Origin: Amylibacter sp.
GTDB taxonomy: Bacteria; Pseudomonadota; Alphaproteobacteria; Rhodobacterales; Rhodobacteraceae
Direction: 5' to 3'
NCBI GenBank assembly: GCA_021775375.1
Contig: JAJFHY010000076.1
Span: 1-45,731, forward strand
DNA length: 45,731 nucleotides
In this document: one piece after another, positions 7,950-45,656 of the stretch
Layout of the letters: each line of letters opens with the position of its first letter
Position numbering within the stretch: position 1 is the stretch's first letter
Made by a program: the position numbers and the translations under genes
The notes under the pieces: generated by a model
What the model saw: the letters and a program-made list of their open reading frames with translations, nothing else
Database searches by the model: none
What the model was told of the DNA's origin: nothing

Positions 7950-8753
7950 ATGTCAGGACTAATCATCGATGATGTGTCCATGACCTTTGAATTGCCGAAT
8001 GGCGGCAAGGTAGAGGCATTAAAGAACATCAATATGGATATTAAAGAAGGCGAGCTACTGTCAGTTCTAGGCCCTTCTGGATGCGGAAAATCAACACTCT
8101 TGAACATTCTTGCAGGCTTTTTGGCCCCGACCGATGGGGTTATGACCCTGTCAGGCGAGCTGATCACAAGCCCAAGCCCTCAGCGCGGGATGGTATTCCA
8201 ACATGGCGCATTGTTTGAATGGATGAACGTATCAAAGAACATCGGCTTTGGCCCTTCTATGAAAGGCACGCCGCAAGCTGAAATTGACGCCAAAGTAGAA
8301 GAACTGTTAGACATCGTTGGTTTGCAAGAGTTTGGCCAAAAAATGATCTATGAAATGTCAGGTGGTATGCAACAACGTGTGGCTTTGGCCCGTTGTCTTG
8401 CCAATGAACCCGATGTTATCCTGATGGATGAGCCATTGGGTGCGTTGGATGCGTTGACCCGCGAAAAAATGCAAAGTCTGGTTCTGGATATATGGAAAAA
8501 AACCGGCAAAACAATTATCCTAATCACCCACTCAGTGGAAGAAGCACTGCTATTGGGCGAACGTCTGTTGGTTATGGCACCACGTCCTGGCCGCGTGCTA
8601 AAAGAATACAGGTTGCCCTTTGCCGAGATGGGCGTAGGCGCAGATCTGCGCGAAGTGAAACAGCATAAAGATTTTGGACCGACACGCGATGAAATCCTGA
8701 ACATGATTTGGGATATGGAAGAAGAAATCATGGGCCGGGCGGAGGAATCATAA
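7950..8753 (+). CDS. tauB: Taurine-type ABC transporter ATP-binding protein
   Basis: Walker A GPSGCGKST, signature MSGGMQQRVALARCLA, Walker B VILMDEPLGALD; ATG at 7950 preferred over 7938 because a G-rich SD (GGGGGG) precedes it. Confidence 0.85.
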   Translation: MSGLIIDDVSMTFELPNGGKVEALKNINMDIKEGELLSVLGPSGCGKSTLLNILAGFLAPTDGVMTLSGELITSPSPQRGMVFQHGALFEWMNVSKNIGFGPSMKGTPQAEIDAKVEELLDIVGLQEFGQKMIYEMSGGMQQRVALARCLANEPDVILMDEPLGALDALTREKMQSLVLDIWKKTGKTIILITHSVEEALLLGERLLVMAPRPGRVLKEYRLPFAEMGVGADLREVKQHKDFGPTRDEILNMIWDMEEEIMGRAEES

Positions 8754-10084
8754 TGGTACAGGAAATTCTAGACGTATTAGGCACCACATTCTGGATGGTG
8801 ATTGGTATCATCGGCATCTTTTGTCTTTATCTGGCCGTAAGTGGCCTGTGTTATTTTGTGCATAATCTATACAATAGAGGACGTGACAAAGCCAAAGGGT
8901 ATTCAAGCCTGAAAACGGTGACATTCGGCGACGAAAGCTCTGTTGTTGCAACACGGGCCGCATCAATTGCAGCCGTGATTACACTGTTTTTATTCTGGGG
9001 CATTGCCACGGGTTCAAAAATACTTCCAATTGGCTTACCAGGCCCATTCGTTGGTGACACATCCTTTGAATACACAGCTACAAATGCTGCTGGTGATACT
9101 GCCGATGCAACCGTTTTTGTGCGCATTCATGAAGCTGACAATAAAGACGCCCCCACACCAGAAGTGTCTGGTGACGGCGGGTTAAGCTTTGCTAAATCTG
9201 ATGTCATTCTATTACCAGAACGGCGCACCAAGATCATCAAAGTGCAAAACAATGATGAAGGCGGTAAAGAAGAAGGCTACAAAATCACTGCTGTAAACGG
9301 TCAAGCGATCAGCCCTAATCAAACGGTTCCGTTTAGTGATGGCGAGGTTTTCATGACCAGCAAAGGCAGCTTATCTGTACGCCCTGCTACGGGTGTGACG
9401 ATGGAAGCGCTATATCTACCACCACCTGAATTGGTTTGGAAACGCTTTGGCAATCTTTGGAATAATGGATATCTGGGTGTAGGCCTTTGGGAAAACGTTT
9501 TCTGGTCACTGATCCGCGTTGTTATAGGCTTTGCACTGGGGTGCCTATTCGGTATTCCATTGGGCTTTGCGATGGGCCTAAACTCATGGCTTCGCGGCTG
9601 GTTTGAACCTATCGTGGAATTCATGCGCCCCGTGCCACCGCTGGCATTAATCCCGCTGATCATCATCTGGTTCGGCATTGGAGAGCAAGGGAAGATCAGC
9701 TTGCTGTTCCTGGCTGCTCTATGGATCATGACAATTGCGGCACGTTCGGGTGTATCCGGTGTGAGTATCGCCAAAATCCACGCGGCTTACAGCCTAGGGG
9801 CCACTAAGAGGCAGATACTATCCAATGTGATCTTACCAAACTCCCTGCCCGAGATATTTACAGGTGCACGCGTTGCGATGGGTGTTTGTTGGGGTACTGT
9901 TGTTGCGGCCGAATTGGTTGCGGCGGAAAAAGGGGCCGGTAAAATGATTATCGCTGCGTCAAAATTCCAGCTTACAGACATCGTGATCATTGGTATCATC
10001 ATCATTGGTATTATCGGCTACGGCATCGACGTTATGATGCGTATTGCTGAAAACAAATTGGTTCCTTGGAAAGGCCGCGGATAA
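8753..10084 (+). CDS. tauC: Taurine-type ABC transporter permease with large N-terminal/periplasmic insertion
   Basis: TAATG overlap with tauB; C-terminal binding-protein-dependent permease domain (EFMRPVPPLALIPLIIIWFGIGEQGKISLLFLAALW); about 140 aa insert between TM segments. Confidence 0.82.
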   Translation: MVQEILDVLGTTFWMVIGIIGIFCLYLAVSGLCYFVHNLYNRGRDKAKGYSSLKTVTFGDESSVVATRAASIAAVITLFLFWGIATGSKILPIGLPGPFVGDTSFEYTATNAAGDTADATVFVRIHEADNKDAPTPEVSGDGGLSFAKSDVILLPERRTKIIKVQNNDEGGKEEGYKITAVNGQAISPNQTVPFSDGEVFMTSKGSLSVRPATGVTMEALYLPPPELVWKRFGNLWNNGYLGVGLWENVFWSLIRVVIGFALGCLFGIPLGFAMGLNSWLRGWFEPIVEFMRPVPPLALIPLIIIWFGIGEQGKISLLFLAALWIMTIAARSGVSGVSIAKIHAAYSLGATKRQILSNVILPNSLPEIFTGARVAMGVCWGTVVAAELVAAEKGAGKMIIAASKFQLTDIVIIGIIIIGIIGYGIDVMMRIAENKLVPWKGRG

Positions 10085-10086
10085 CA

Positions 10087-11013
10087 ATGACATCCCCATT
10101 TTTAACAAACAGAGAGGCCGCTATACCAAGCGGCCTTTTAACTTTGGCACAGTCATTTGGCGCCCCGCGCGTGGCGATTGCGCGCGCTGGTGCGGAGCTG
10201 CCGATGCAGGCAGCTTATGATGCCACGACTGCGGGTATTATGGAGCCTGTTTTCACCGGTGAAGCGGATGCAATCAAGGCCGAAGCGGATAAGCTCGGTT
10301 GGAATATTTCCGGCTTTGAGATTATTGAGACTGTCGGCGAAGAAGCCGCAGGGCATGCCGCCGCATTAGCTTGTGGAGAGGGCCACGCGGATGTGCTGAT
10401 GAAGGGTCATTTGCATACGGATGTGTTCATGAAATCGGCCCTGTCACGCGACAACGGCCTGCGTACGGGCGGACGATTGGTGCATGTGTTCCACATAACG
10501 CACCCCGATGGCGGCAAGCCTTTGATAATATCCGATGCCGCCGTAAATGTGACGCCGGACATGGACACCCGCAAGGCTGCGATTACGAATTGCGTAACGT
10601 TGTTGCGAAAACTGGGGACTGACCAGCCCAAAGTGGCGATGTTGTCGGCCACAGAAAGTGTTCTGCCTGCGGTACCTTCATCTGTTGAAGCCCGCGAATT
10701 ACGTGATTGGGCGCGCGCGGAAATTCCGAACGCGCATTTTTCCGGACCTTTGGCAATTGATTTGATCTTGTCACCCGAAAGCGTTGCAATCAAAGGCATG
10801 GGGGATGACCCCGTTGCAGGCAATGCCGATGCGATTATTGTCCCCGACATCGTCAGCGGAAACACCCTGTTCAAATCGCTTGTCTACCTGTCGGGGGGAT
10901 GTGCTGCAGGTGTGGTCATGGGCGCAAAAGTACCGATCCTGCTGACAAGCCGTGCTGATCCTGCGGTGGCGCGGATCGCGTCGGTTGCGTTGGCTGCGGT
11001 CATTAACGGGTAA
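10087..11013 (+). CDS. pta: Phosphate acetyltransferase/butyryltransferase family protein
   Basis: GEGHADVLMKGHLHTDVFMKSALSRDNGLRTGGRLVHVF and SGGCAAGVVMGAKVPILLTSRAD; follows tauC. Confidence 0.85.
   Translation: MTSPFLTNREAAIPSGLLTLAQSFGAPRVAIARAGAELPMQAAYDATTAGIMEPVFTGEADAIKAEADKLGWNISGFEIIETVGEEAAGHAAALACGEGHADVLMKGHLHTDVFMKSALSRDNGLRTGGRLVHVFHITHPDGGKPLIISDAAVNVTPDMDTRKAAITNCVTLLRKLGTDQPKVAMLSATESVLPAVPSSVEARELRDWARAEIPNAHFSGPLAIDLILSPESVAIKGMGDDPVAGNADAIIVPDIVSGNTLFKSLVYLSGGCAAGVVMGAKVPILLTSRADPAVARIASVALAAVING
10112..10140 (+). terminator. Intrinsic-terminator-like hairpin within 5' end of annotated pta ORF
   Basis: AGGCCGCT-ATACCA-AGCGGCCT followed by TTTAACTTT, at codons ~9-18 of pta. 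Confidence 0.6.
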
Positions 11014-11306
11014 TTCTGTATCGCTTATCATCATATGCAACAACCGTGCGCCCCGCTTACACAATCGCAACCTAATGAAGTGTATAACAGCGCTGTCGAC
11101 AAAAGTGGTTCACGGGTTTTCAAAGATTGCTTTGCAATCTTCTGTCACCCCAGCGGGTTTTCAAAGGGCGGGTAACAACGTCAAATGCGAAAACCACCGA
11201 AACTACCGGTAAGATTAGGTGCAAAGGGTAAAACCTTTGTTCGGCTTTATAACCGCATATGGTGGCGCCACCTTCTTATAATAAACATACCCAATAATAC
11301 ATAAAA

Positions 11307-11333
11307 CCCCGCCACCGATGAACGGCGACGGGG
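11307..11333 (-). terminator. Rho-independent terminator of the Fe-ADH operon
   Basis: On minus strand CCCCGTCGCCG-TTCAT-CGGTGGCGGGG followed by TTTTAT; 11-bp stem with two G-U wobbles, just downstream of the stop at 11360. Confidence 0.82.
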
Positions 11334-11359
11334 CTAAAAGGCGTATTTAAATCAATCCT

Positions 11360-12514
11360 TTATAGGCAAGCTTCAAACAGCGACCGTGTGTTGTCATAGG
11401 TCATCTCTGTCGGATTGCCGCCAACGCTTGGATCGTTCAGGGCTTCCTTGGTCAGTAGATCAATATCAGGGTCTTTTACGCCCAGTTCCGTCAGATTTTT
11501 CGGGATGCCCAAGCTGTCGTTCAGGTCTGACACAAAGTTGTAAAACCCGTCAAAGCCACCTTCTATATCCAAATAACGTGCAGCATCGGTAATCACACCT
11601 TCTATTGCGGATCGGTTGAATTTCAGCACTTCCAGCATCACCACAGCATTTGTTGTACCGTGGTGGGTGTGGTGCATCGCACCGATGGGATGGGACAGTG
11701 CGTGAATAGCGCCCAGACCTTTTTGAAAGCCGGTTGCCCCCATAATAGCCGCTGACATCATGTGACCACGCGCTTCGATATCCGTACCGTCCGCATAGAC
11801 TTTCGGCAGGTTTTCTTTGACCAGACGCATACCTTCCAGCGCCATGCCCTGGCTCATCGGGTGGTAATGCGGTGAACAGAACGCTTCCAGACAATGGGCG
11901 AACGCATCCATGCCTGTACCTGCAGTGATGAAGGCAGGCATGCCCACAGTCAGTTCAGGGTCGCAGATCACAACACTTGGCAAGATTTTGGGATGAAAGA
12001 TGATCTTTTTCTGGTGGGTTTCGGAATTGGTAATAACAGATGCACGCCCCACTTCAGAGCCCGTCCCCGCAGTTGTCGGCACAGCCACAATCGGTGCAAT
12101 CGCGTCGCTGTCGGCACGTGTCCACCAGTCGCCGACATCTTCAAAATCCCATAACGGGCGGGATTGGCCCGCCATAAAGGCAATGACCTTGCCAAGATCA
12201 AGTCCGGAGCCACCGCCAAAGGCAATCACGCCATCATGGCCGCCTGCGCGATAAACCTTCAGACCGGACTCGACATTGTCGCCGGTCGGGTTCGGATCAA
12301 CTTCGGAAAACATCGCGCGGCCAAGCCCTGCTGCATCCATCAGATCAAGCGTGGATTGGGTCACAGGCAGGTTCGCCAAGCCTTTGTCCGTTACTAGCAG
12401 CGGTTTTTTCATGCCAGCGGCAGCACAGGCGTCGGCAATTTCAGAAATACGTCCTGCGCCAAAGCGGATAGCGGTTGGGTAAGACCAGTTTGCGGTAAGT
12501 GTCATAATATTCAA
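11360..12514 (-). CDS. Iron-containing alcohol dehydrogenase
   Basis: Fe-ADH signatures GGGSGLDLGKVIAFMA, PTTAGTGSEVGRASVIT, GLGAIHALSHPIGAMHHTHHGTTNAVVM. Confidence 0.93.
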   Translation of the reverse strand: MNIMTLTANWSYPTAIRFGAGRISEIADACAAAGMKKPLLVTDKGLANLPVTQSTLDLMDAAGLGRAMFSEVDPNPTGDNVESGLKVYRAGGHDGVIAFGGGSGLDLGKVIAFMAGQSRPLWDFEDVGDWWTRADSDAIAPIVAVPTTAGTGSEVGRASVITNSETHQKKIIFHPKILPSVVICDPELTVGMPAFITAGTGMDAFAHCLEAFCSPHYHPMSQGMALEGMRLVKENLPKVYADGTDIEARGHMMSAAIMGATGFQKGLGAIHALSHPIGAMHHTHHGTTNAVVMLEVLKFNRSAIEGVITDAARYLDIEGGFDGFYNFVSDLNDSLGIPKNLTELGVKDPDIDLLTKEALNDPSVGGNPTEMTYDNTRSLFEACL

Positions 12515-13890
12515 GCCTTCTTGATGTGGTAGGATTTAGGGCGTGTCAGGTTATGATAACCTATGATGGATAAGCCGCCGCCGCGTCCGGTGTTTTTGCA
12601 ACCCGTCCAGCAAAGAGCGGGGTCAAGATAATCGCAGCGGTTGGTGAATACAGTACCGGTATCGATTTGATCGGCAATACTTTCCGCACGCGCGTAATCG
12701 CGTGTCCAAAGCGATGCCGTCAGACCGAATTCGCTGTCGTTCATCAGCTTGATGGCTTCTGCATCATCTTTGACTTTCATAATGCCAACAACAGGCCCAA
12801 AGCTTTCGTCACGCATCACGCGCATATTATGGTTAACATCAACCAGTATTTGCGGCATCAGATATGCATCGTGGTCATTCGGGAATAAAGCGGGATCAAT
12901 CAGGGCCGTGGCCCCATCTGCAATAGCTTCGGCGGTTTGGGCGCGCACTTCATCGGCAAAACGCACATGTGCCATAGGCCCAAGCGTGGTTTCAGGGTTC
13001 ATGGGGTCGCCCAGCTTGTATCCGTTCACAATTGCCACAGCTTTTTCAACGAATGCATCAAACAGGCTTTCAACCACATAAATACGTTCAATCCCGCAGC
13101 AACATTGACCCGAATTGAACATCGCACCATCGATAAGCGTGTCTACGGCCGCATCCAGATCGGCGTCTTCCATGACATAACCCGGATCTTTGCCGCCCAG
13201 TTCCAACCCTACCCCCGTGAATGTGCCTGCGGCTGCGGTTTCAATTGCCATACCGCCCCCGACAGACCCTGTGAAGTTCACAAAACCAAAGGATTTAGCC
13301 GCGATAAGGGCCGCTGTCGTGCCGTGGTCTAAAAAAACATTCTGGAACACATCTTCGGGAATACCTGCCGTATGAAACGCCGCGGCCATACGTTCGCCCA
13401 CCAGCAGCGTTTGCGATGCCATTTTCAGCATCACGCTATTGCCCGCGATCAGTGCGGGGACAACCGAGTTCACAGCCGTCATATAGGGGTAATTCCAAGG
13501 GGCGACCACAAGCACAACACCGTGCGGTACGCGTTTGATTTTACGGGTGAATGCATCGCTTTCTTCGACGATGATCGGGGCTAAAGCGTCTACAGCAATA
13601 TCCGCCATATGGCTTGCACGTTCATCAAAGCCGCCGAATTCACCACCATAACGGATCGGGCGGCCCATTTGATGCGCCAGTTCCGGTACGATCTGATCGT
13701 TCATTTCGCCGACCGCAGCTACACCCGCCTGCACTAGTGCTATGCGTTCGGATAAAGGGCGCGCAGCCCATGCAACTTGCGCGGCTTTTGCACGCATCAC
13801 GGCTTCCAGAGCCGCTTCCTGTTGCAACACAGGCCGTTCAGCATAAAGCGACCCATCAATGGGCGAGATACATTTTACAGTGTTTGTCAT
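12511..13890 (-). CDS. Aldehyde dehydrogenase family protein
   Basis: ALDH motifs VVAPWNYPYMTAVNSVVPALIAGN, LELGGKDPGYV, FNSGQCCCGIERIYV; 4-bp overlap with Fe-ADH. Confidence 0.93.
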   Translation of the reverse strand: MTNTVKCISPIDGSLYAERPVLQQEAALEAVMRAKAAQVAWAARPLSERIALVQAGVAAVGEMNDQIVPELAHQMGRPIRYGGEFGGFDERASHMADIAVDALAPIIVEESDAFTRKIKRVPHGVVLVVAPWNYPYMTAVNSVVPALIAGNSVMLKMASQTLLVGERMAAAFHTAGIPEDVFQNVFLDHGTTAALIAAKSFGFVNFTGSVGGGMAIETAAAGTFTGVGLELGGKDPGYVMEDADLDAAVDTLIDGAMFNSGQCCCGIERIYVVESLFDAFVEKAVAIVNGYKLGDPMNPETTLGPMAHVRFADEVRAQTAEAIADGATALIDPALFPNDHDAYLMPQILVDVNHNMRVMRDESFGPVVGIMKVKDDAEAIKLMNDSEFGLTASLWTRDYARAESIADQIDTGTVFTNRCDYLDPALCWTGCKNTGRGGGLSIIGYHNLTRPKSYHIKKA

Positions 13891-13892
13891 TG

Positions 13893-15254
13893 CTATACTC
13901 TTTCAAATCCGCGTGCGATTTCATAATCGGTCACGACCTTGGCAAATTCTTCAAGCTCCCATTCCGCAGCCCGGGTGTAGTGGTCGACCACATCGTCACC
14001 CAAAGCTTCGCGCAGCATTTTCGAGCCTTTCAACGCATCTTTTGCATCCCGCAGGTTTTGCGGGATAAAACCGCCAGTGCCTTCATAGGCATCACCTTCG
14101 GAGGGTGGATCAAGCTTTTCTTTGTCTTCAATCCCTTTGATACCTGCAGCCAATTGTACAGCCATTGCAAGATATGGGTTCATGTCGGAACCGGGGATGC
14201 GGCATTCTATCCGCACGGCTTTACTATCGGCACTGCACAGACGGAAACCCGCTGTGCGATTGTCCACCGACCAGATCGTGCGCGTGGGTGCAAACGAGCC
14301 TTTGGCAAAGCGTTTATAGCTGTTGATGTAAGGGGCGAGGAAATACATGTAATCAGGCGCGTATTTCAGCAGGCCGCCCATATAGGCGCGCATGAGATCT
14401 GACATGCCCAATTTTGCATCTTTATCGTAAAACGCGGGTTTTCCGTCTTTCCAAAGCGATTGATGTACATGCGAGGACGAGCCAACACGGTTCTGATCCC
14501 ATTTCGGCAGGAACGTCACCGCGTGGCCTTGTGACCATGCAATTTCCTTTATCGCGTGTTTTGCGATTGTGTGGTGATCCGCGGTATTGATCGCGGTATC
14601 GTATTTGATATTCAACTCTTCCTGCCCTGCTTCCGCCTCGCCTTTGGTGCCCTCAATCGGCAGGCCGGCGGCGTATAGATGGTTGCGGATCGGGCGCATG
14701 ATATGTTCTTCTTTGGTGGTTTGGAAGATGTGGTAATCTTCATTATAGCCGCTGATCGGCTCCAGATCGCGGAAGCCTGATTTGCGTATCTCGTCAAAGC
14801 TTTTCGCAAACAGGAAAAACTCCAGCTCGGTCGCCATCATCGGGTCGAACCCCATGTCAGCAAGGCGTGCAATCTGCTTTTTCAGCACGGCACGCGGTGA
14901 ATGCGAAATTGGCTCATAGGTGTGGTGATCCAGAACATCACAAAGGATCATGACAGTACCTTCCAACCACGGCACTGGGCGTAATGTGGAAAGATCCGGC
15001 TTCATCACATAGTCGCCGTAACCGCTTTCCCAACTGGTAGAAGCATAGCCGTCAGGTGTCGCCATTTCCAGATCGGTGGCCAGCAGATAGTTGCAGCAAT
15101 GGGTTTCTTCCCAGCCGCCATCTACAAAATGCTGCGCGAGGAAACGCTTGCCCATCAAGCGGCCTTGCATATCGACGATACAGGCCAGAACCGTATCAAC
15201 GGTGCCGTCCGCAACATGTGAATTCAGTGTTTCAAAACTTAGATGACCAGTCAT
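13893..15254 (-). CDS. Glutamine synthetase-like protein (type III GS / gamma-glutamylamide synthetase family)
   Basis: GS fold motifs MMATELEFFLF, GEAEAGQEELNIKYDTAINTADHHTIAKHAIKEIAWSQGHAVTFLPKW, GSSSHVHQSLW, NRTAGFRLC. Confidence 0.9.
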   Translation of the reverse strand: MTGHLSFETLNSHVADGTVDTVLACIVDMQGRLMGKRFLAQHFVDGGWEETHCCNYLLATDLEMATPDGYASTSWESGYGDYVMKPDLSTLRPVPWLEGTVMILCDVLDHHTYEPISHSPRAVLKKQIARLADMGFDPMMATELEFFLFAKSFDEIRKSGFRDLEPISGYNEDYHIFQTTKEEHIMRPIRNHLYAAGLPIEGTKGEAEAGQEELNIKYDTAINTADHHTIAKHAIKEIAWSQGHAVTFLPKWDQNRVGSSSHVHQSLWKDGKPAFYDKDAKLGMSDLMRAYMGGLLKYAPDYMYFLAPYINSYKRFAKGSFAPTRTIWSVDNRTAGFRLCSADSKAVRIECRIPGSDMNPYLAMAVQLAAGIKGIEDKEKLDPPSEGDAYEGTGGFIPQNLRDAKDALKGSKMLREALGDDVVDHYTRAAEWELEEFAKVVTDYEIARGFERV

Positions 15255-15285
15255 TGACGTTCCTAGAAATGTTAAGAGTGTTGAG

Positions 15286-15309
15286 GGGCGCGGATAATCA
15301 CCCGCGCCC
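15286..15309. other. Intercistronic hairpin dctP-GS, perfect 8-bp stem
   Basis: GGGCGCGG-ATAATCAC-CCGCGCCC; no T-run. Confidence 0.75.
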
Positions 15310-15319
15310 GCCTTATTAT

Positions 15320-16354
15320 TTAGCCATAACGGTATGGGCGTCCAGCTTTAACCATATCGGCGTTGTATTTCTTGAAGATATCGACAACTTTCGCCTTGGT
15401 TGGGCTTTCGGCTGCGATCTCGTCCCAGAACTTCACGGCAGCGGCTTCCACTGTATCCCATTCCGCATCCGGAATAGTTGTCAGCTTCATCTTCGGCCCG
15501 TTGACGCGCAATGCTGCTTCACCGCCCCAGTACCACCACTGACGGTAGTAATGCGATTGGTCACAGCAGACGCGGAACAGCGTTTGCAAATCGTCCGGTA
15601 GTTCATTCCAGCGATCCATATTGGCAAAGAATGACCCTGCCCATGCGCCCGAGATATTGTTGGTCAGGAAGTAATCAGTCACATCCGCCCAGCCAACTGT
15701 GTAGTCTTCGGTGATGCCCGACCACGCGATGCCATCCAGCTCGCCGGTTTGTACGGCAACTTCGATGTCTTCCCATGGAAGCGTTACTGGAACCACACCG
15801 AACTGTTCAAGGAAACGTCCCGCAGTCGGGAAGGTAAATACGCGTTTGCCTTTCAGGTCAGCCAGGCTGTGGATCGGATCTTTGGTAGCGAAGTGGCATG
15901 GGTCCCAAGACCCTGCACTGATGTGCTTAACGCCAACCTTGGAATATTCTTCATCCCAAATTTCATTCAATCCATACTGGTTGAACAATACGGGCACATC
16001 AAGGCTGTAACGCGAGCCAAATGGGAAATATCCACCGAAAACAGTGACTTCCGTTGGTGATGCCATGCTGTCGTCATCGGATTGCACCGCATCAATTGTG
16101 CCTTTTTGCATGGCACGGAACAATTCGCCCGTCGGAACCAACTGATCTCCATAAAAAAGCTCGATCTGCATACGGTCACCGGCAATTTTGTTAAACATAT
16201 TTATCGCCGGTGTAACGACATGGTCAGCCAATGCCGCACCTGCATATGTTTGCATACGCCATTTGATCGTGGATTGTGCAAGGGCGGGGGCTGCCAGGCT
16301 TGCACCTACTGCACCCGCACCGGCGGTGGTTAAAAACTTACGTCTAGTTGTCAT
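15320..16354 (-). CDS. TRAP transporter substrate-binding protein (DctP family, Tat-like signal)
   Basis: MTTRRKFLTTAGAGAVGASLAAPALAQSTIKWRMQTYAGAALADHVVTPAINMFNKIAGDRMQIELFYGDQLV. Confidence 0.92.
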   Translation of the reverse strand: MTTRRKFLTTAGAGAVGASLAAPALAQSTIKWRMQTYAGAALADHVVTPAINMFNKIAGDRMQIELFYGDQLVPTGELFRAMQKGTIDAVQSDDDSMASPTEVTVFGGYFPFGSRYSLDVPVLFNQYGLNEIWDEEYSKVGVKHISAGSWDPCHFATKDPIHSLADLKGKRVFTFPTAGRFLEQFGVVPVTLPWEDIEVAVQTGELDGIAWSGITEDYTVGWADVTDYFLTNNISGAWAGSFFANMDRWNELPDDLQTLFRVCCDQSHYYRQWWYWGGEAALRVNGPKMKLTTIPDAEWDTVEAAAVKFWDEIAAESPTKAKVVDIFKKYNADMVKAGRPYRYG

Positions 16355-16428
16355 TTTCAGTCTCCTGGTTGGTTTATATATACCCTGAACGGGCGGTGAA
16401 TTTTATGCTCCTATCGGAGTTCTTCTTA

Positions 16429-17751
16429 TTATTTTCCATAAACATATTCCGGTAGCCAAAGGGCGATCTGCGGGAACATCATGATTAACGACAGTGCGAA
16501 CACCATAATCAATACAAACGGTACGATTGAGCTATATATGTCGCGCAATGTTATTTCCGGCGGTGCCATGGCACGCATCAAAAACAGGTTATAACCAAAG
16601 GGCGGCGTCATATAGGCAATCTGTGTTGTGACTGTATATAGCACACCGTACCAGATCAAATCAAAGCCCAAGGCCCCGACCAATGGTACGTAAAGTGGTG
16701 CGACAATCACCAACATGGCGGTATCGTCCAGAAATGTGCCCATCAAAAGAAATGAAAGCTGCATCAGGATCAGGATCATCCACGGGTCAAGACCCAACTG
16801 TTCGGTGAACAGATAGCGAATAGCGTTCACAGCACCCAAACCGTCAAACACGGCACCAAACCCAAGGGCTGCCAGAATGATCCACATGAACATGCAAGAT
16901 ATAGCCAGCGTTTGGCGCACGGATACTTCCAGCACCGCTTTATTCATCCGCCCCTTCACGATTGCGGCAACAAAAGCGGCCATCGCACCGATAGCGGAAC
17001 TTTCCACCAACGACGTCCAGCCTTTGACGAACGGTACCATCATGGACGCGAAAATGATCAGCGGTAATAGACCTGCCCGCAACAAACGCAGTTTCTCGGA
17101 CAAAGGTACGTTCCGCTCTTCAGGTGGCAATACCGGCCCAAGCGCGGGATTTATTTTACACCGTATTGCAATATAGATGATGAACATACCTGCCATCATC
17201 AGCCCGGGCAGAACACCGGCCAACCACAATTGGCCAACAGGTTGGCGCGCAATCATCGCATAAAGCACCAGAACAACGGAAGGAGGTACAAGGATACCAA
17301 GGGACGATCCCGCTTGGATCACCCCTGTGACCATTTTTTTGTCATAGCCCCGCTTTAACAATTCGGGCAATGCAATGGTTGACCCGATGGCCATACCCGC
17401 CACAGACAAGCCGTTCATCGCCGATATCAGCACCATCAACCCGATTGTACCAATAGCAAGTCCACCATGTATCGGCCCCATCCAGACATGAAACATTTTA
17501 TAGAGATCATCAGCAATTTTACTTTCGGACAGGACGTAACCCATGAAAATAAACATCGGCAGCGTCAAAAGCGGATACCATTTCATCAGCTTCATCGCGG
17601 CCGAGAACGGCATGTCGGAACCACCGATACCCCATAGGCTAACGGCGGCAATCGCACCCACGGCCCCGATGGCAGCAAATACGCGTTGGCCCGTAAACAT
17701 CATCAACATCATTGACGAAAACATCACTATGGCAATCATATTTTGCGACAT
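16429..17751 (-). CDS. TRAP transporter large permease subunit (DctM family)
   Basis: 440 aa, multi-TM, LPMFIFMGYVLSESKIADDLYKMFHVWMGPIHGGLAIGTI...GIL(V)PPSVVLVLYAMIA. Confidence 0.93.
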   Translation of the reverse strand: MSQNMIAIVMFSSMMLMMFTGQRVFAAIGAVGAIAAVSLWGIGGSDMPFSAAMKLMKWYPLLTLPMFIFMGYVLSESKIADDLYKMFHVWMGPIHGGLAIGTIGLMVLISAMNGLSVAGMAIGSTIALPELLKRGYDKKMVTGVIQAGSSLGILVPPSVVLVLYAMIARQPVGQLWLAGVLPGLMMAGMFIIYIAIRCKINPALGPVLPPEERNVPLSEKLRLLRAGLLPLIIFASMMVPFVKGWTSLVESSAIGAMAAFVAAIVKGRMNKAVLEVSVRQTLAISCMFMWIILAALGFGAVFDGLGAVNAIRYLFTEQLGLDPWMILILMQLSFLLMGTFLDDTAMLVIVAPLYVPLVGALGFDLIWYGVLYTVTTQIAYMTPPFGYNLFLMRAMAPPEITLRDIYSSIVPFVLIMVFALSLIMMFPQIALWLPEYVYGK

Positions 17752-18350
17752 TACAATGCCACCCCTTTAATTTTAGCGATATCTTTAATCAGTTCCGAAA
17801 TTGCCTGAAGCAGCATCAAGAAAATACCAATGATCATGGTTACTTTAATTGGCCAGAGGTATGGTCGCCACGCGGTCGCACTGCGCTCCAACCGTCCGAT
17901 AACCTCACTCGCGCCATCAAACCCGCCTGTAATAAAGCCCACGAACAAGTTTTTGAAAAACACAAACGGTTCCATATTATACGGCTTGCCAAGCGAAAAC
18001 GCGGTGGAATCGATAGCGCCATATAAAAGCACACCAAGATAAGCCAGTAAAAACAACACGGTAAGGCTGTCTATTTGGGCCTTACGCCGATCCGTCCACT
18101 CGCCGTAAAACAAATCCATCCGTACATTTGCGCCCAGTTGTATGGAATACGGCCCGCCTAAGATATAATAGGCCACCATAGCAAATTGCGCGACTTCCAA
18201 TGTCCAGCGAGATGGTAAAAACGCGACTTTCGATATTGACGACCACAACAGTATCCCGACCATTACGAATATGCCGTACATCATCACGCGACCGATGCGA
18301 TAGTTGGTTGCATCAACAATGCGCACATATTTTCTGGCGAAACCTAGCAC
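17751..18350 (-). CDS. TRAP transporter small permease subunit (DctQ family)
   Basis: 199 aa, four TM, RWTLEVAQFAMVAYYILGGPYSIQLGANVRMDLFYGEWTDRRKAQID; 1-bp overlap with dctM. Confidence 0.88.
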   Translation of the reverse strand: MLGFARKYVRIVDATNYRIGRVMMYGIFVMVGILLWSSISKVAFLPSRWTLEVAQFAMVAYYILGGPYSIQLGANVRMDLFYGEWTDRRKAQIDSLTVLFLLAYLGVLLYGAIDSTAFSLGKPYNMEPFVFFKNLFVGFITGGFDGASEVIGRLERSATAWRPYLWPIKVTMIIGIFLMLLQAISELIKDIAKIKGVAL

Positions 18351-19183
18351 GGCGACCCCTTTGTAGAGATATCTTCGCTTAACTTGGCCAGGCTTACCGA
18401 TAGCAGTTCTGCCAACATCTGTGAGATTTCATCTTGCTGTTCCGGTGTTTCGATCAAATCATTGCAGACCTCGATCATCACATTGATCAAGCCATTTTTT
18501 GTGCCGTGCATTTCCAGTGTATGGGCCACTTCGTCAGCTTTTGAATAAGGCATGTTCAAAGCGTAATTTAAACCCAGACGTGCGCCCGATAGATCGACCA
18601 TAGTCGCCGCCAGTTTCGCATGTGCATCGTGGATCATGCCAACATCCACTTCACGAACACGGTCGTTATATGTGCGGGTAAAGCTGTGGATAGTGACAAG
18701 TATCGGTGGCGTTTTAAAAGATTTAATCGTGTCTGCCACGGTGCGCGTAAACGGTTCATAAACCGTTTCTACACGCTCTATTTGGTCTAGCGTTGTTAGG
18801 GCCTCGTTACCGGGAACAATGATTTGTTCACTGACGGCGCGTATCGCACCTGACGATGTGGGCGGTCTGTTGCAATCGTAAACCAGACGCGAAACAGTGC
18901 TGACAACCAAAGGCGCATCCAGCAGTGCACTTAATCGCTCGGCTACGGCCTGCGCGCCGGGGTCCCAGGCCGCATGGGAAATCTTAGCAGCATCGGTCAT
19001 ACCCAAACCTGCATAACGCTCCGGTATATGGTTACTGGCGTGCTCGCATACCAACAGAACCCTAGACTGCCCTTCCCCGTTGATAACAAGGGCAGAAGAC
19101 AAAGGTTTATCGATCTTGAGGTCGGACGTGGCAGCGTGCGGCAAAATGATTCCTCTTGGTGGATTTTGTAAAATTCTCTTCAC
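18344..19183 (-). CDS. N-formylglutamate amidohydrolase (FGase) family protein
   Basis: VLLVCEHASNHIPERYAGLGM, AWDPGAQAVAERLSALLDAPLVVSTVSRLVYDCNRP, VTIHSFTRTYNDRVREVDVGMIHD; GTG start; 7-bp overlap with dctQ. Confidence 0.88.
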   Translation of the reverse strand: MKRILQNPPRGIILPHAATSDLKIDKPLSSALVINGEGQSRVLLVCEHASNHIPERYAGLGMTDAAKISHAAWDPGAQAVAERLSALLDAPLVVSTVSRLVYDCNRPPTSSGAIRAVSEQIIVPGNEALTTLDQIERVETVYEPFTRTVADTIKSFKTPPILVTIHSFTRTYNDRVREVDVGMIHDAHAKLAATMVDLSGARLGLNYALNMPYSKADEVAHTLEMHGTKNGLINVMIEVCNDLIETPEQQDEISQMLAELLSVSLAKLSEDISTKGSPC

Positions 19184-19225
19184 TTAATGTCCGCCTGTCA
19201 ATAAGATTGTGTAAATTCCTCTTCA
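19164..19225. promoter_or_regulatory. Two imperfect 19-bp direct repeats in FGase/rpiR divergent region
   Basis: TTTTGTAAAATTCTCTTCA (19164-19182) and TTGTGTAAATTCCTCTTCA (19207-19225), 16/19 identical, 43 bp apart. Confidence 0.5.
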
Positions 19226-19268
19226 ATAAACATGCCGCTGGCGATATGTATACATTGTGGAGGATCAA

Positions 19269-20135
19269 ATGGGTTCAGGGACAATTGCAGAACGCTTGCA
19301 GACGAGAGTTGATACACTTACGCGTGCAGAACGACAACTTGCTGATACTATTATGGAAAACTACCCTGTATCGGGATTAGGCTCTATCACGACTGTTGCT
19401 GAAAAAGCTGATGTGTCTACCCCCACGGTTGCCCGTTTAGTACAAAAACTTGGGTTTAAAGGATTCCCGGAATTCCAAAAACAATTGCGTAAAGAACTGG
19501 AAGCAACCATATCCGGCCCGATTGCAAAGCATGATAAATGGGCGGGGGATGCGCCTGACACACATATTCTAAACCAGTTCACCGATGCCGTGATGAAAAA
19601 TATAAAGAAATCTCTGGCGCAAATCGATCCTGTTATTTTTGATGAAAGTTGTAAATTGCTGGCCGACGATAACCGGTCGGTCTATATAGTCGGCGGTCGT
19701 ATCACCCGTGCATTGGCCGATTATTTTTTCCTGCATATGCAAGTAATCCGCCCGAATGTCACTTTAGTTCAATCAATTTCAAACGCATGGCCGCACTATC
19801 TGTTGAATATGAAAAAAGGTGATGTCATCGTAATCTTTGATGTACGGCGCTATGAAAATGGCACGCTTATGCTAGCCGAACTTGCTGCAAAAAAAGGTGT
19901 AGAGATTATATTGCTGACTGATCAGTGGATTTCACCAATCAGCAAGTTTACCGATTTGGTTTTCGGGTCCAGGATCGTAGTGCCTTCGGCATGGGACTCT
20001 TCTGTAACAAGCCTGCTGCTGTTGGAAACGATACTGGCCGAGGTTCAGGGCATTATTTGGCCCCAAACCCGTCGGCGTATGCAAGAACTTGAAGATATGT
20101 TCGATGAAACCAAGCTTTTTAGAAAATTCACATAA
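19269..20135 (+). CDS. RpiR-family transcriptional regulator (HTH_6 plus SIS domain)
   Basis: LTRAERQLADTIMENYPVSGLGSITTVAEKADVSTPTVARLVQKLGFKGFPEFQKQLRKEL plus SIS domain VYIVGGRITRALADYFFLHM; ATG 19269 preceded by GGAGG (GTG 19257 possible). Confidence 0.9.
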   Translation: MGSGTIAERLQTRVDTLTRAERQLADTIMENYPVSGLGSITTVAEKADVSTPTVARLVQKLGFKGFPEFQKQLRKELEATISGPIAKHDKWAGDAPDTHILNQFTDAVMKNIKKSLAQIDPVIFDESCKLLADDNRSVYIVGGRITRALADYFFLHMQVIRPNVTLVQSISNAWPHYLLNMKKGDVIVIFDVRRYENGTLMLAELAAKKGVEIILLTDQWISPISKFTDLVFGSRIVVPSAWDSSVTSLLLLETILAEVQGIIWPQTRRRMQELEDMFDETKLFRKFT

Positions 20136-20909: not shown

Positions 20910-22733
20910 ATGCGAAGCCTTATTGAAACTATATGGCGCTTGCGCAATCCATTATTAGCCGCACATATCATTGTCACAGTGATTTCTGTCGCGGTTGTTT
21001 TGCCGCTTGCACAATTCACGATGTATTCTGCGGTAAAACTTTCCGGTACGCAGGCTTTGACCGATCAGGATATTGCGCGCTTTTTGTTTTCACCTATCGG
21101 TCTTATTGGATTGTTATTGGTGAGCAGCGTTTTGATTGTCGCGGCGGTTCTGGAACTTTCAGTTATGCTGTGGATGATACACGCCGACGCGAAAGGTCAT
21201 CGCACCACCCTTGTTTCTACGCTATCCGCAATTACCATGCGCCTGCCCCGACTAATGGGCTATGCTGCACGGCTTATTTTACGTCTGTTTGTTGTCATCT
21301 TGCCTTTTGCCGCGTTAATTGGCTTGGTCGCGTGGATGTTTTTAACCGAATTCGATATTAATTATTACCTGACATTTCACCCGCCGGAATTTATCCGCGC
21401 CATTGTAATAATTGTACCAATCGCGGTCTGCCTATTTTGTGTATTGCTCTATCTTTTCGTCGGCTGGGCTTTGGCATTTCAGTTAACACTTTTCACCGAT
21501 ACCCCGCTATCAAACGTATTTGCGCAAAGTGTCGCCCATTCACAAGGACTGCGGAAGTATATATTGGGACGGCTCGTTATTTGGGGCGTTTTATCTATAT
21601 TCATTACAATATTCGTCTCAGTCATGTTGCGATGGCTTATAGAAGTTGTCATGCCTGATATTACAGCATCGTTACCGATTATCGCGATTGTTGGAACGGT
21701 CCTGATGTTGATCTGGTCTGCAACATTTATACTTATCGCGGCATTTAACACAGGTACATTGGCCATGACGCTGTCACAAATAGCACAGCGGGCTGATACC
21801 CATTTTCCCGACAGGTTATCCAAGACAACACCGGATAAGTTTCAGTGGCTCGGCTATATTCTGATTGCTTTCGTATTGGCATCAACCGGTGGGTCCGCAG
21901 TTGCCTTATATCAAGGGGCCGGAACGCCTGATCATGTCGCAGTCATTGCCCACCGCGGTGCTGCAGGTATCCGCCCGGAGAATACGATGGCCGCAATGGA
22001 AGCAGCTATTAAAGACGGTGCTGACTGGTTGGAAATTGATGTTCAGGAAACCGCAGAAGGCGAAGTCATTGTCATACATGACAGTGATTTTATGAAAATC
22101 GCCGGAAACCCCTTAAAGGTTTGGGATGCTACTGCTGAAAAACTTGCCGATATTGACATTGGCAGCTGGTTTGATCCTGCATACAGCAATGAAAGAACCC
22201 CGACCCTGCGACAAGTTCTTATGGCAGCACACGGGCGCTCAAATGTACTGGTTGAGTTGAAATACTATGGTCATGACGTTGATCTTGCCGGTCGTGTTGC
22301 AGCGATAGTGGAACAGACAGACATGGTTGCCAACACTGCGTTCATGTCGCTTAACCGCGACCAGATGGTCCGTATGAAAGCGGTCCGGCCTGATTGGCGT
22401 GTCGGGTTGCTTGCCGCAACATCCATCGGTGATCTAAGTAAAGTTGAGGCTGATTTTCTTGCGGTCAATGCATCAAGTGCCAGCACCGGTTTTATTACCC
22501 GGGCACGTAAAGCGGGTAAGGATGTTTATGTCTGGACAGTTGATGATCCACTGACAATGTCCCGCATGATGTCGCGCGGGGCTGTGGGCCTTATAACCAA
22601 TGAGCCGGCTATGGCAGTCCATACAATCACGGTACGGCGTGACACACCTTTAATCGTGCGTATTATGCTTGAAGCAGCAGATATGATTGGTCTTGATGTA
22701 GAACGTAAAAGATACAGAGATAACTCCCCTTAA
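20910..22733 (+). CDS. Glycerophosphodiester phosphodiesterase with N-terminal membrane domain
   Basis: Multi-TM N-terminus plus GDPD motifs VIAHRGAAGIRPENTMAAMEAAIKDGADWLEIDVQETAEGEVIVIHDSDF and YVWTVDDPLTMSRMMSRGAVGLITNEP. Confidence 0.93.
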   Translation: MRSLIETIWRLRNPLLAAHIIVTVISVAVVLPLAQFTMYSAVKLSGTQALTDQDIARFLFSPIGLIGLLLVSSVLIVAAVLELSVMLWMIHADAKGHRTTLVSTLSAITMRLPRLMGYAARLILRLFVVILPFAALIGLVAWMFLTEFDINYYLTFHPPEFIRAIVIIVPIAVCLFCVLLYLFVGWALAFQLTLFTDTPLSNVFAQSVAHSQGLRKYILGRLVIWGVLSIFITIFVSVMLRWLIEVVMPDITASLPIIAIVGTVLMLIWSATFILIAAFNTGTLAMTLSQIAQRADTHFPDRLSKTTPDKFQWLGYILIAFVLASTGGSAVALYQGAGTPDHVAVIAHRGAAGIRPENTMAAMEAAIKDGADWLEIDVQETAEGEVIVIHDSDFMKIAGNPLKVWDATAEKLADIDIGSWFDPAYSNERTPTLRQVLMAAHGRSNVLVELKYYGHDVDLAGRVAAIVEQTDMVANTAFMSLNRDQMVRMKAVRPDWRVGLLAATSIGDLSKVEADFLAVNASSASTGFITRARKAGKDVYVWTVDDPLTMSRMMSRGAVGLITNEPAMAVHTITVRRDTPLIVRIMLEAADMIGLDVERKRYRDNSP

Positions 22734-25573: not shown

Positions 25574-26479
25574 TTACGATGCTGTAGGCTTGAAGTTACG
25601 CTGTTTCAACACATCCAGCAATTCACTAAGCGATGCGTTCACCGCTTTTCCAGAGGTGTCGATTTGTGCCGTGGCTTTTCCATAAAGGATCTCGCGGTTG
25701 GCAAGGATTAACTTTAATTGCTCCATGGCTTCGGGGTTCCCCGCCATCGGGCGTTCGTCCCCTTGCGCACGTACGCGCGCCATGTGTTCTTCGGGGCTGG
25801 CTTTCAGCCATATGGTTTGAAAGTTATTCAGCAGTAGATTGTACGTGTCGGGGGCAGCAACGATACCACCGGAAACAGCGAGAACCATAGTGTCATAGGT
25901 TTCCATGATGCGGTTTATAGCTTGCGCTTCCAGCTTGCGGTAGCCTTCCTGCCCATAGAGAGCCATCACTTCGGCTATGGCCATGCCGCTTTGCTCTTCG
26001 ATTTTGCGGTTAAGCTCGACAAATGGCACGCCCAGTGCATTGCCTGCCAACGCGCCAAGTGTTGATTTACCGGCACCGCGCAATCCGACAAGACAAATGC
26101 GGTTTGCATGTGTGACAAGCAATGTATCAGGGTTTAAAATCTGTAGAACCTGTTTTTGAGTGTCTGTATCTGCCGCGCGGTACATTTTTAACATGCGTAA
26201 ACTATCAGCATCCCAAGGGTCATCATCGCCCATTATCCATTCTATTCGGTGATCAAGTGCTGTGGCAATCTTTTGCAATAGCCCGATGGAAATATTTCCA
26301 TCGCCTGCTTCAAGCTGTGCCAGATAGCGCGGTGATACGCCGGATATTTCTGACAGCACACGACGCGGGATGCCTTTGCGCTCTCTGGCTATGCGAACAC
26401 GTAGTCCAACCCTTATAATCAGGGATGAAACAAGCGCATCATCAGCTGTTTCGGCTTTATCGTGGGTAATTTCATCCAT
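25574..26479 (-). CDS. boxR: BoxR/BzdR-type regulator (XRE HTH fused to shikimate-kinase-like domain)
   Basis: HTH (GLRVRIARERKGIPRRVLSEISGVSPRYLAQLEAGDGNISIGLLQKIATAL) plus P-loop SK-like domain (RICLVGLRGAGKSTLGALAGNALGVPFVELNRKIEE); next to box genes. Confidence 0.92.
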   Translation of the reverse strand: MDEITHDKAETADDALVSSLIIRVGLRVRIARERKGIPRRVLSEISGVSPRYLAQLEAGDGNISIGLLQKIATALDHRIEWIMGDDDPWDADSLRMLKMYRAADTDTQKQVLQILNPDTLLVTHANRICLVGLRGAGKSTLGALAGNALGVPFVELNRKIEEQSGMAIAEVMALYGQEGYRKLEAQAINRIMETYDTMVLAVSGGIVAAPDTYNLLLNNFQTIWLKASPEEHMARVRAQGDERPMAGNPEAMEQLKLILANREILYGKATAQIDTSGKAVNASLSELLDVLKQRNFKPTAS

Positions 26480-26493
26480 TTGACCAACTTTTA

Positions 26494-26507
26494 TGCAATA
26501 TAATGCA
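26494..26507. promoter_or_regulatory. Putative BoxR operator upstream of boxR
   Basis: TGCAATATAATGCA (TGCA-N6-TGCA), 15 bp upstream of the boxR start. Confidence 0.65.
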
Positions 26508-26550
26508 CATATAAATGGTTGGCGTCAGAACTCAACCAAAATTGACTGAC

Positions 26551-27741
26551 TTAATAGGTTTCCACATGATAACGGCCCTCTTCGCGCATTGCATTACGAA
26601 GCGTGGCCCAGTTCAGATCAACACTGTTTGCAATATCGCCCATTGCCTGTTCAACACCTTGTTCCATTGCTTTTAACCCGCAGATGTAAATATAGGTGTC
26701 CGGATTTTGCAAAAGCCGGGCAATACTGTCTGATTCATTTTGTAACGTGTCTTGAACATACTGTTTAGGTGCGTTTTCTATTCTGCTGAAAGCAAAATAA
26801 GTTTTCATGAACGTTTCGGGTATTTTCTTAAGCGGGCCGAAATACGGCAGGTCATCGGGGCGGCGCGCGCCAAATACTAATGTCAGGGCATTTTTTATTG
26901 TCGGGTTTTCGCGTTGGCGCCGCATTGTAAAGCCGCGAAACGGTGCAGAACCGGTTCCGGTGCATATCATCAAAAGATTTGCCTGTGGATCTGCGGGCAA
27001 CAAGAATGTAGCACCAAAAGGCCCTGTCAAAAGCACTTCATCGCCCATTTCAAGGTCGCATAAATAGTTAGAGCAAATACCATGTTCTTCACGCTTAACA
27101 GTCAGTGAGATGTTATTGAAATTGGGCCGCTCACCGTCGCGCGGACTGGACACGGAATACAACCTTGAAAGATGTGCGTTGCCGTTGGCATCTGCGCCGG
27201 GCGCAAGCACACCGACCGACTGACCTTCCAGAACCGGAAAAGGCAGACCGCCTAGATCAAGTATGATATGGCGAACATCTGTATCGCTGTCTGCGGCGGT
27301 TAATCGGTAGTTTCCCTGCACGGTAGCAGTAGCGGGTTTACCCGGCGTATAGAGGTTTACTGAAGCTTTTGATGCGGTTTTCGGTGCATTAGGCTTACCA
27401 CCTGTACCCTTGTGAGCCTCTGCAAGAAGGGCTGCAACGGCTTCATCATGCGCTTCGATATCTATATCCGCATCGGGCGATTTAATGTCGGCCTGTTCAG
27501 GCAAATCCATCCAACCAAGCTGTTCTTCCAGCGTATAGGGCACATCAACGACACGCCATTCGTCGATAGACCCCGTTGGGCAAACCGGAATACAATCCAT
27601 ACAAACATTGCACTTCGAGGCATCAACAACGACATTATTGTCGTCATGGCTGATCGCCCCGATTGTGCAGGTCATTTCGCATGTATGACACCGAATACAT
27701 ATCTCGGGGTCAATCAGGTGCTGTTTCGTAGGTTTGTTCAT
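26551..27741 (-). CDS. boxA: Benzoyl-CoA 2,3-epoxidase subunit BoxA
   Basis: Two 4Fe-4S motifs (CIRCHTCEMTC, CNVCMDCIPVCP) plus FNR-like reductase domain (RLYSVSSPRDGERPNFNNISLTVKRE, LMICTGTGSAPFRGFTM); adjacent to boxB. Confidence 0.93.
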   Translation of the reverse strand: MNKPTKQHLIDPEICIRCHTCEMTCTIGAISHDDNNVVVDASKCNVCMDCIPVCPTGSIDEWRVVDVPYTLEEQLGWMDLPEQADIKSPDADIDIEAHDEAVAALLAEAHKGTGGKPNAPKTASKASVNLYTPGKPATATVQGNYRLTAADSDTDVRHIILDLGGLPFPVLEGQSVGVLAPGADANGNAHLSRLYSVSSPRDGERPNFNNISLTVKREEHGICSNYLCDLEMGDEVLLTGPFGATFLLPADPQANLLMICTGTGSAPFRGFTMRRQRENPTIKNALTLVFGARRPDDLPYFGPLKKIPETFMKTYFAFSRIENAPKQYVQDTLQNESDSIARLLQNPDTYIYICGLKAMEQGVEQAMGDIANSVDLNWATLRNAMREEGRYHVETY

Positions 27742-27761
27742 TCAATTATCATTCCGAATAT

Positions 27762-29213
27762 CTACGCCATATGCAATTTGACATATTCAAAATCACCGGG
27801 CTGGTTGTTTATACCAACCTTTGGCGGCGCAATCCAACCTGCGTATTTCCCGGGCTCGGACACCGGTATCATCAACGATTGGATAAAATCGCCATCGGCC
27901 TTGGTCGGCAGCCAGTCTTTTACATTTGCATCCCATTCTTCTTTGCTGATGATATTACCTGCGGGATCAACGGAAACGGCCGCAAAAACACCTATCTGGC
28001 GGTGAAAGCCTTCATGCGGCATGACCATTTCGAATTGAACGCCCAGTTTTTCGATTATTTTGTTCCAACGGCCAACACCACCTGCGGCGTCACGCACATA
28101 ATCATCACGCAATCGCATGTTGATCGCCGTCAATGCAGGCGCGTCTTGTAAAATTATATGATTATCGACAACGCTGCGCACCGGATAAATCGCATCATTC
28201 AATTTGTGATCATCTTCTATCCGGCCCTCCAGATAACGCCCCTTGATACCTGCGTTAAAAGCATTTGCCGCATTGGTCGACACTTCACTGCCAAACAGAT
28301 CAAGCGACAATGTGTAATGCAGGTTCAGTTTTTTCTGGATGGTCGGCAGATCAATCACACCAAGTGCGCGGACTTTTTCGATGTCATAAGGATCATCGAT
28401 ACCCGCATCCTTCATTGCCTCACATGTGCGTTGAATGGTGCGTCCGACACCGGTTTCACCGACAAACATATGGTGGGCTTCTTCGGTTAACATAAAACGG
28501 CATGTGCGCGACAAAGGATCAAATCCGGATTGGGCCAGACTTTCCAGCTGCATCTTGCCATCGCGGTCTGTGAAGTAGGTGAACATAAAGAATGACAGCC
28601 AATCCGGCGTTTCTTCATTAAATGCCCCCAGCATGCGCGGTGCCTCTTCCGAGCCTGATGATCTGCGCAACAGATCATCGGCTTCTTCGCGACCATCAGC
28701 ACCGAAATATTTCTGTAAAAGATATACCATTGCCCAAAGATGGCGGCCCTCTTCCACATTCACCTGAAACAAGTTGCGCATGTCGTAAAGTGAAGGCGCG
28801 GTAATGCCCAAAAAGCGTTGCTGTTCAACGGACGCAGGCTCTGTATCGCCTTGTATCACGATCAGGCGGCGTAGCATGGAACGATATTCACCGGGAACTT
28901 CCTGCCAAGCAGGGTCGCCTGCATGTTCACCAAATGGGATGCGGCGATCTTCTACAGCGGGTGCCAAAAGAATACCCCAGCGATACTCGGGCATTTTCAC
29001 ATAGTCGAATTTAGCCCAACCCTTTGGGTCAACACTTACGGCTGTACGCAAATAGATAGCACTTTTTTGAAACTTGTCAGGCAGCAGTTCTGTCCACCAG
29101 TTAATATAGCCGGGGTGCCATTTTTCCAGAGCTTTCAAAACGCGTTTATCCGAGGATAATCCCACATTATTCGGGATTTGCGTGTCATAACTGACATTGA
29201 CGAGATCGTTCAT
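27762..29213 (-). CDS. boxB: Benzoyl-CoA 2,3-epoxidase subunit BoxB
   Basis: Diiron oxygenase motifs NVEEGRHLWAMVYLLQKYFGADGREEADDLL and LTEEAHHMFVGETGVGRTI. Confidence 0.95.
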   Translation of the reverse strand: MNDLVNVSYDTQIPNNVGLSSDKRVLKALEKWHPGYINWWTELLPDKFQKSAIYLRTAVSVDPKGWAKFDYVKMPEYRWGILLAPAVEDRRIPFGEHAGDPAWQEVPGEYRSMLRRLIVIQGDTEPASVEQQRFLGITAPSLYDMRNLFQVNVEEGRHLWAMVYLLQKYFGADGREEADDLLRRSSGSEEAPRMLGAFNEETPDWLSFFMFTYFTDRDGKMQLESLAQSGFDPLSRTCRFMLTEEAHHMFVGETGVGRTIQRTCEAMKDAGIDDPYDIEKVRALGVIDLPTIQKKLNLHYTLSLDLFGSEVSTNAANAFNAGIKGRYLEGRIEDDHKLNDAIYPVRSVVDNHIILQDAPALTAINMRLRDDYVRDAAGGVGRWNKIIEKLGVQFEMVMPHEGFHRQIGVFAAVSVDPAGNIISKEEWDANVKDWLPTKADGDFIQSLMIPVSEPGKYAGWIAPPKVGINNQPGDFEYVKLHMA

Positions 29214-29238
29214 TTTAGGTCCCCCTTATCACGCATCA

Positions 29239-30900: not shown

Positions 30901-30928
30901 GACCCGAATTCCTCTGTAAGTTTAATGT

Positions 30929-30946
30929 TATGCATTATAATGCATA
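30929..30946. promoter_or_regulatory. Putative BoxR operator upstream of boxC: 18-bp perfect palindrome
   Basis: TATGCATTATAATGCATA; contains TGCA-N6-TGCA and an embedded TATAAT. Confidence 0.72.
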
Positions 30947-30947
30947 T

Positions 30948-30961
30948 TAATGTCGACATTA
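30948..30961. promoter_or_regulatory. Second perfect palindrome in boxC promoter region
   Basis: TAATGTCGACATTA, 14 bp, perfect. Confidence 0.5.
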
Positions 30962-31008
30962 CCCAATATATGCGTTATATTGCCATCGCTTGCAAGATGC
31001 ATGCACCA

Positions 31009-41628: not shown

Positions 41629-41650
41629 TTTAGAATTCCAAAATCAGAAA

Positions 41651-44585: not shown

Positions 44586-44606
44586 TGTATTCTCCCCTTA
44601 AATCAA

Positions 44607-44633
44607 CGCGGCCCTCTTTCTTAGAGGGCCGCG
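44607..44633. other. Intercistronic hairpin dctP-dctQ, perfect 11-bp stem
   Basis: CGCGGCCCTCT-TTCTT-AGAGGGCCGCG; no T-run on minus strand. Confidence 0.87.
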
Positions 44634-44651
44634 CAATAGTGTAAACTGAAA

Positions 44652-45626: not shown

Positions 45627-45656
45627 TTTATTCTCCCTGGTTTTCATTATAGTCAG

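Follow-up and report, generated by a model that had tools for sequence, protein, structure and literature searches.

In Phaeobacter sp. MED193, an RpiR gene stands beside genes for GGAH, EtoV, EtoW, EtoX, an ethanolamine gamma-glutamylase, a gamma-glutamyl-aldehyde dehydrogenase and a gamma-glutamylethanolamide dehydrogenase, in that order (Westermann et al. 2023, PMC10132767). MED193 EtoX binds ethanolamine with a Kd of 7.9 uM, the operon is induced and its proteins go up on phosphoethanolamine, and etoX is found in about 5-10% of ocean bacteria (PMC10132767). The FGase-family enzyme of this operon has already been named gamma-glutamylglycine amidohydrolase (PMC10132767). The pathway in Chromohalobacter salexigens and Agrobacterium tumefaciens is credited to Vetting et al. 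2015 (as cited in PMC10132767). Csal_0678, from C. salexigens, binds ethanolamine and is devoid of the carboxylate-binding arginine seen in other TRAP binding proteins (PMC4646407). For Streptomyces coelicolor, the last step was assigned to a member of the formylglutamate-amidohydrolase family as a prediction (Krysenko et al. 2019, PMC6529630).

Here we examine a 45,731-nucleotide stretch of DNA from an Amylibacter sp. (the window), which carries a member of this published system and not a new one. A sequence-only reading of the locus had proposed import of an amine, gamma-glutamylation, two oxidations and deglutamylation, with ethanolamine as a candidate substrate. That reading was essentially right and is already in print, because the MED193 operon has the same order, orientation and pathway (PMC10132767, PMC6529630). 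It overstated one point in calling an FGase-family deglutamylase unusual, since this step had been proposed in 2019 (PMC6529630) and again in 2023 (PMC10132767). What the window sequence adds is confined to promoter and gene-start details, and the promoter and operators are the only part for which we found no published description.

Layout and conservation of the operon

Seven genes form one minus-strand run at 11360-19183. In a Pfam search all of their families score above the cut-offs, including FGase (PF05013, about 114-115 bits), Gln-synt_C (328 bits), Aldedh (370 bits) and Fe-ADH (167 bits) as well as DctQ, DctM and DctP. The features of the run and its divergent regulator are as follows.

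11305..11335, minus strand: intrinsic terminator (terminator scan)
11360..12505, minus strand: Fe-ADH, probable gamma-glutamylethanolamide dehydrogenase (PF00465; 74% to the MED193 orthologue)
12511..13890, minus strand: ALDH, probable gamma-glutamyl-aminoacetaldehyde dehydrogenase (PF00171; 74% to the MED193 orthologue)
13893..15254, minus strand: predicted ethanolamine gamma-glutamylase, GS-like (identity to 5dm3 and the MED193 enzyme; clade support)
15286..15309, minus strand: GC-rich hairpin, probable 3'-end protector or attenuator (MFE against shuffles; folds in relatives)
15320..16354, minus strand: EtoX, predicted ethanolamine-binding TRAP protein (PDB 4uab match; orthology to MED193 EtoX; Phe replacing Arg)
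16429..17751, minus strand: EtoW, TRAP large permease, DctM (Pfam; order as in MED193)
17751..18350, minus strand: EtoV, TRAP small permease, DctQ (Pfam; order as in MED193)
18344..19144, minus strand: FGase-family hydrolase, probable gamma-glutamylglycine amidohydrolase, GGAH (PF05013; PDB 2odf; MED193 orthologue)
19257..20135, plus strand: divergent RpiR-family regulator, HTH_6 + SIS (Pfam; placement in relatives and MED193)

The seven-gene run that the sequence-only reading described is therefore borne out by the Pfam matches. The strong terminator said to close it ranks first in the terminator scan (11335-11305; 13 pairs, 9/13 of them G-C). Three of the reported junctions also stand, namely a 7-bp overlap between FGase and DctQ, a 1-bp overlap between DctQ and DctM, and a 2-bp gap between the GS and ALDH genes. 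The fourth, a 4-bp overlap between ALDH and Fe-ADH, falls because it rests on TTG 12514. The Fe-ADH frame is open from this codon, which lies inside the ALDH stop, but we dropped it in favor of the start that matches homologues, ATG 12505 (M-x-L-x-x-NWSYP), and this leaves a gap of 5 bp.

Wider gaps precede dctP (74 bp) and the GS gene (65 bp), and the second of these holds the hairpin. Its MFE is -22.3, whereas shuffled versions average -11.8. A strong fold is present in the etoX/ligase gap in 80/80 relatives with no evident sequence conservation, and host GC content contributes to it. Judging from its predicted folding, the hairpin probably serves as a 3'-end protector or attenuator. In some Ruegeria the same gap contains a Na/Pi cotransporter-PhoU gene (L041, 11184-12869; similar proteins in L038 and L053), hinting that ethanolamine and phosphate use are coupled.

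We compared the locus with its relatives, defined as the 80 closest EtoX loci. The co-localisation on which the earlier reading depended is well kept: all eight genes occur in the same order and orientation in 65/80 relatives, and several others are cut by contig ends. The best relative is an Amylibacter MAG (98%), and the MED193 operon itself (MED193_10021-10056) was recovered as locus L021. Five loci with largely intact flanks have the transporter but neither ligase nor dehydrogenases, two with FGase (L012, L065) and three without it (L032, L075, L087). When we looked over their ORF lists, no replacement catabolic module (eutBC etc.) was obvious beside any of the five.

EutB gave no match in the 3.2-Mb host bin of 264 contigs, with the positive control detected in E. 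coli, and missing eutBC could be a gap because the bin is only 91% complete. The published trait is thus extended to an Amylibacter-like bin without an EutB match. Phospholipid head groups supply the sea with ethanolamine as a plentiful source of nitrogen and carbon, and the eto operon gives access to it with no need for an ammonia-lyase or a microcompartment.

A membrane-anchored glycerophosphodiester phosphodiesterase (GDPD, 20910-22733) adjoins the RpiR gene and could release ethanolamine from glycerophosphoethanolamine. We rejected it as part of the system and treat the adjacency as chance, because it lies beside the operon in 0/80 relatives. A TauC-like ABC permease (8708-10084) carries about 230 extra N-terminal residues, the TauC model matching residues 232-457 only; an NMT1-type binding protein and then an ATPase are encoded ahead of it, and it overlaps a phosphotransacetylase gene (10066-11013). 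The stretch 25574-33407 resembles the aerobic benzoyl-CoA (box) pathway, with a shikimate-kinase-like HTH regulator, BoxA/B/C-like proteins and an acyl-CoA ligase, after which comes a branched-chain-type ABC transporter. A trimethylamine methyltransferase (MTTB) family gene (322-1866) lies beside an AraC-type regulator with a DJ-1/PfpI domain. Finally, 40900-45647 holds a second TRAP transporter (DctM, DctQ, DctP) and, after it, one protein that weakly matches Asp/Glu racemase and another, of 305 aa, without a Pfam match.

Hydrolase, substrate and ligase

Orthology of the binding protein and ligase to solved Chromohalobacter proteins, the gene order shared with MED193 and with 65/80 relatives, the missing carboxylate-binding Arg, a ligase unlike GlnA and PuuA, the lack of an EutB match and the operator statistics leave us highly confident that the locus would act as an inducible eto-type ethanolamine catabolic operon using the gamma-glutamylation route. 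EtoXVW would import ethanolamine, which the GS-like ligase would join to glutamate at the expense of ATP to give gamma-glutamylethanolamide. Fe-ADH and then ALDH would convert this through the aldehyde to gamma-glutamylglycine, and the FGase-family hydrolase would release glycine together with glutamate, which is recycled. We infer the order of the two oxidation steps and their cofactors. Ethanolamine binding and induction have been shown on orthologues by others.

The hydrolase matches PDB 2odf/Atu2144 (E=1e-53). It is the fastest-diverging member of the operon: most relatives with an EtoX identity of 85-92% show 37-53% for the hydrolase, and in L012 it is 54% identical against 95% for EtoX. 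L090 lacks it in an otherwise complete operon. Because it is the least conserved member and is missing in L090, its role is the weakest assignment. This divergence and occasional absence would fit an enzyme that acts on N-formylglutamate or another amide while a housekeeping peptidase cleaves gamma-glutamylglycine, and the hydrolysis proposed for S. coelicolor is itself a prediction (PMC6529630). We consider this unlikely, since the gene heads the operon in most relatives and the MED193 protein goes up on phosphoethanolamine (PMC10132767). Furthermore, the host bin encodes three FGase-family genes in all, and one of the other two scores 229 bits compared to 115 for that of the operon. Being nearer the family model, this second gene is the better candidate for N-formylglutamate. 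Together, these data make it likely that the FGase-family member of the operon carries out deglutamylation of gamma-glutamylglycine to glutamate and glycine.

EtoX begins with a Tat-like signal (TTRRKF). It is 90-91% identical to MED193 EtoX and matches PDB 4uab/4xf5, a solved ethanolamine-binding protein, with E=4e-191 over 319 residues. We take 4uab to be Csal_0678, which agrees with PMC10132767. In an alignment, the position of the carboxylate-binding arginine is Phe in EtoX and Arg in 7/7 other DctP proteins of the genome. By these comparisons EtoX matches the ethanolamine-binding TRAP proteins of the Csal_0678 / MED193_10041 type. Alternatively, the pathway could serve another or a broader range of small amino-alcohols, such as alaninol or isopropanolamine, in the manner of IpuC, and its main natural substrate would then be something other than ethanolamine. 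Specificity has been measured for the binding protein only, on orthologues, and 4xf5, which has the same sequence as 4uab, presumably holds an amino-propanol. Nevertheless, EtoX identity in the 80 relatives is 84-97%, and in MED193 the EtoX protein binds ethanolamine and the operon is induced when phosphoethanolamine releases ethanolamine (PMC10132767). A main substrate other than ethanolamine is therefore very improbable.

The ligase is 77% identical to the MED193 enzyme and 73% identical to PDB 5dm3 (E=7e-237), presumably the product of the gene neighboring Csal_0678. Our tree contained 5dm3, MED193, L056, 11zs, E. coli PuuA and five GS paralogues of the host. The window's ligase forms one clade with the first four at support 1.00. 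PuuA and the host GS paralogues, GlnA among them, fall outside this clade, and each is 22-28% identical to the ligase. In addition, CNYLL takes the place of the GlnA-type FDGSS motif. A ligase for ammonia or polyamines, in a cluster for nitrogen storage or putrescine, would share the catalytic domain common to this protein, GlnA and PuuA, but is scarcely credible: the ligase falls well below the cut-offs of the GlnA model (246 bits, cut-off 429), the type III GS model (229, cut-off 470) and the PuuA model NF045547 (195, cut-off 650), is only 26% identical to E. coli PuuA and to host GlnA, and shares its operon with an ethanolamine-type importer.

Promoter and candidate operators

The RpiR gene has the same position and orientation in most of the 80 relatives and in MED193. 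Between it and the hydrolase gene lie the following elements.

19173..19201, minus strand: operon promoter, TTGACA (19201-19196), 17 nt, GAGAAT (19178-19173); conserved in relatives
19210..19225, minus strand: candidate upstream RpiR operator, TGAAGAGGAATTTACA (TGWA-N8-TWCA; dyad maximum at -25 from TTGACA)
19167..19182, minus strand: candidate downstream RpiR operator, TGAAGAGAATTTTACA, overlapping the -10 (TGWA-N8-TWCA; dyad maximum at +19)

The promoter bears on where the hydrolase starts. Its frame is open from GTG 19183, but this codon sits between the -35 and the -10, upstream of the latter, and on that ground we rejected it as the start. Translation probably begins at TTG 19144, which has AAGAGGA in front of it.

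We searched 73 RpiR/FGase intergenic regions for the promoter and operator motifs. T(A/T)TTGACA is present in 51/73 regions compared to 2.3 in shuffles, and TGWA-N8-TWCA in 38/73 compared to a shuffle mean of 1.1 (max 3), counts that are inflated by relatedness. The A-tract ahead of TTGACA is also conserved in relatives. Among 46 less related sequences, outer dyad symmetry peaks at +19 and -25 relative to TTGACA, with a slight bias in this test because, in regions that held several TTGAC(A/G), the one with more dyad nearby was taken.

These data suggest that the two pseudo-palindromes, about 43-44 bp apart with one over the -10, are a probable RpiR operator pair. The simplest reading of the operator statistics is that the divergently encoded RpiR probably represses the operon promoter through both. 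More tentatively, and with slightly less than even confidence, we suggest that an RpiR regulon is read via the TGWA-N8-TWCA pair and that the SIS domain senses ethanolamine, a gamma-glutamyl intermediate or an ethanolamine phosphate. If true, such a circuit would control a trait widespread in the sea, and the operator pair would offer a simple handle on its switching-on.

Comparison with known systems

The Puu pathway of E. coli follows the same logic, in which the substrate is glutamylated, oxidised and deglutamylated. It differs in its substrate, putrescine, in its oxidase and in its hydrolase, PuuD, which is of the class-I amidotransferase type, and PuuA is a distant relative of the window's ligase at the 26% identity given above. 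The S. coelicolor GlnA4 cluster has the same proposed chemistry, including an FGase-family gamma-glutamylglycine hydrolase, but uses a short-chain dehydrogenase where this locus has Fe-ADH, along with another transporter and another regulator (PMC6529630). The C. salexigens pathway (PDB 4uab, 5dm3) has an orthologous binding protein and ligase, the two genes that the comparison covered. The MED193 operon is the same in order and orientation throughout (RpiR / GGAH-EtoV-EtoW-EtoX-ETAGA-GAADDH-GETADH). It differs from the locus in the window by sequence divergence only, with protein identities of 44-90% that are lowest for the hydrolase (44%) and RpiR (48%).
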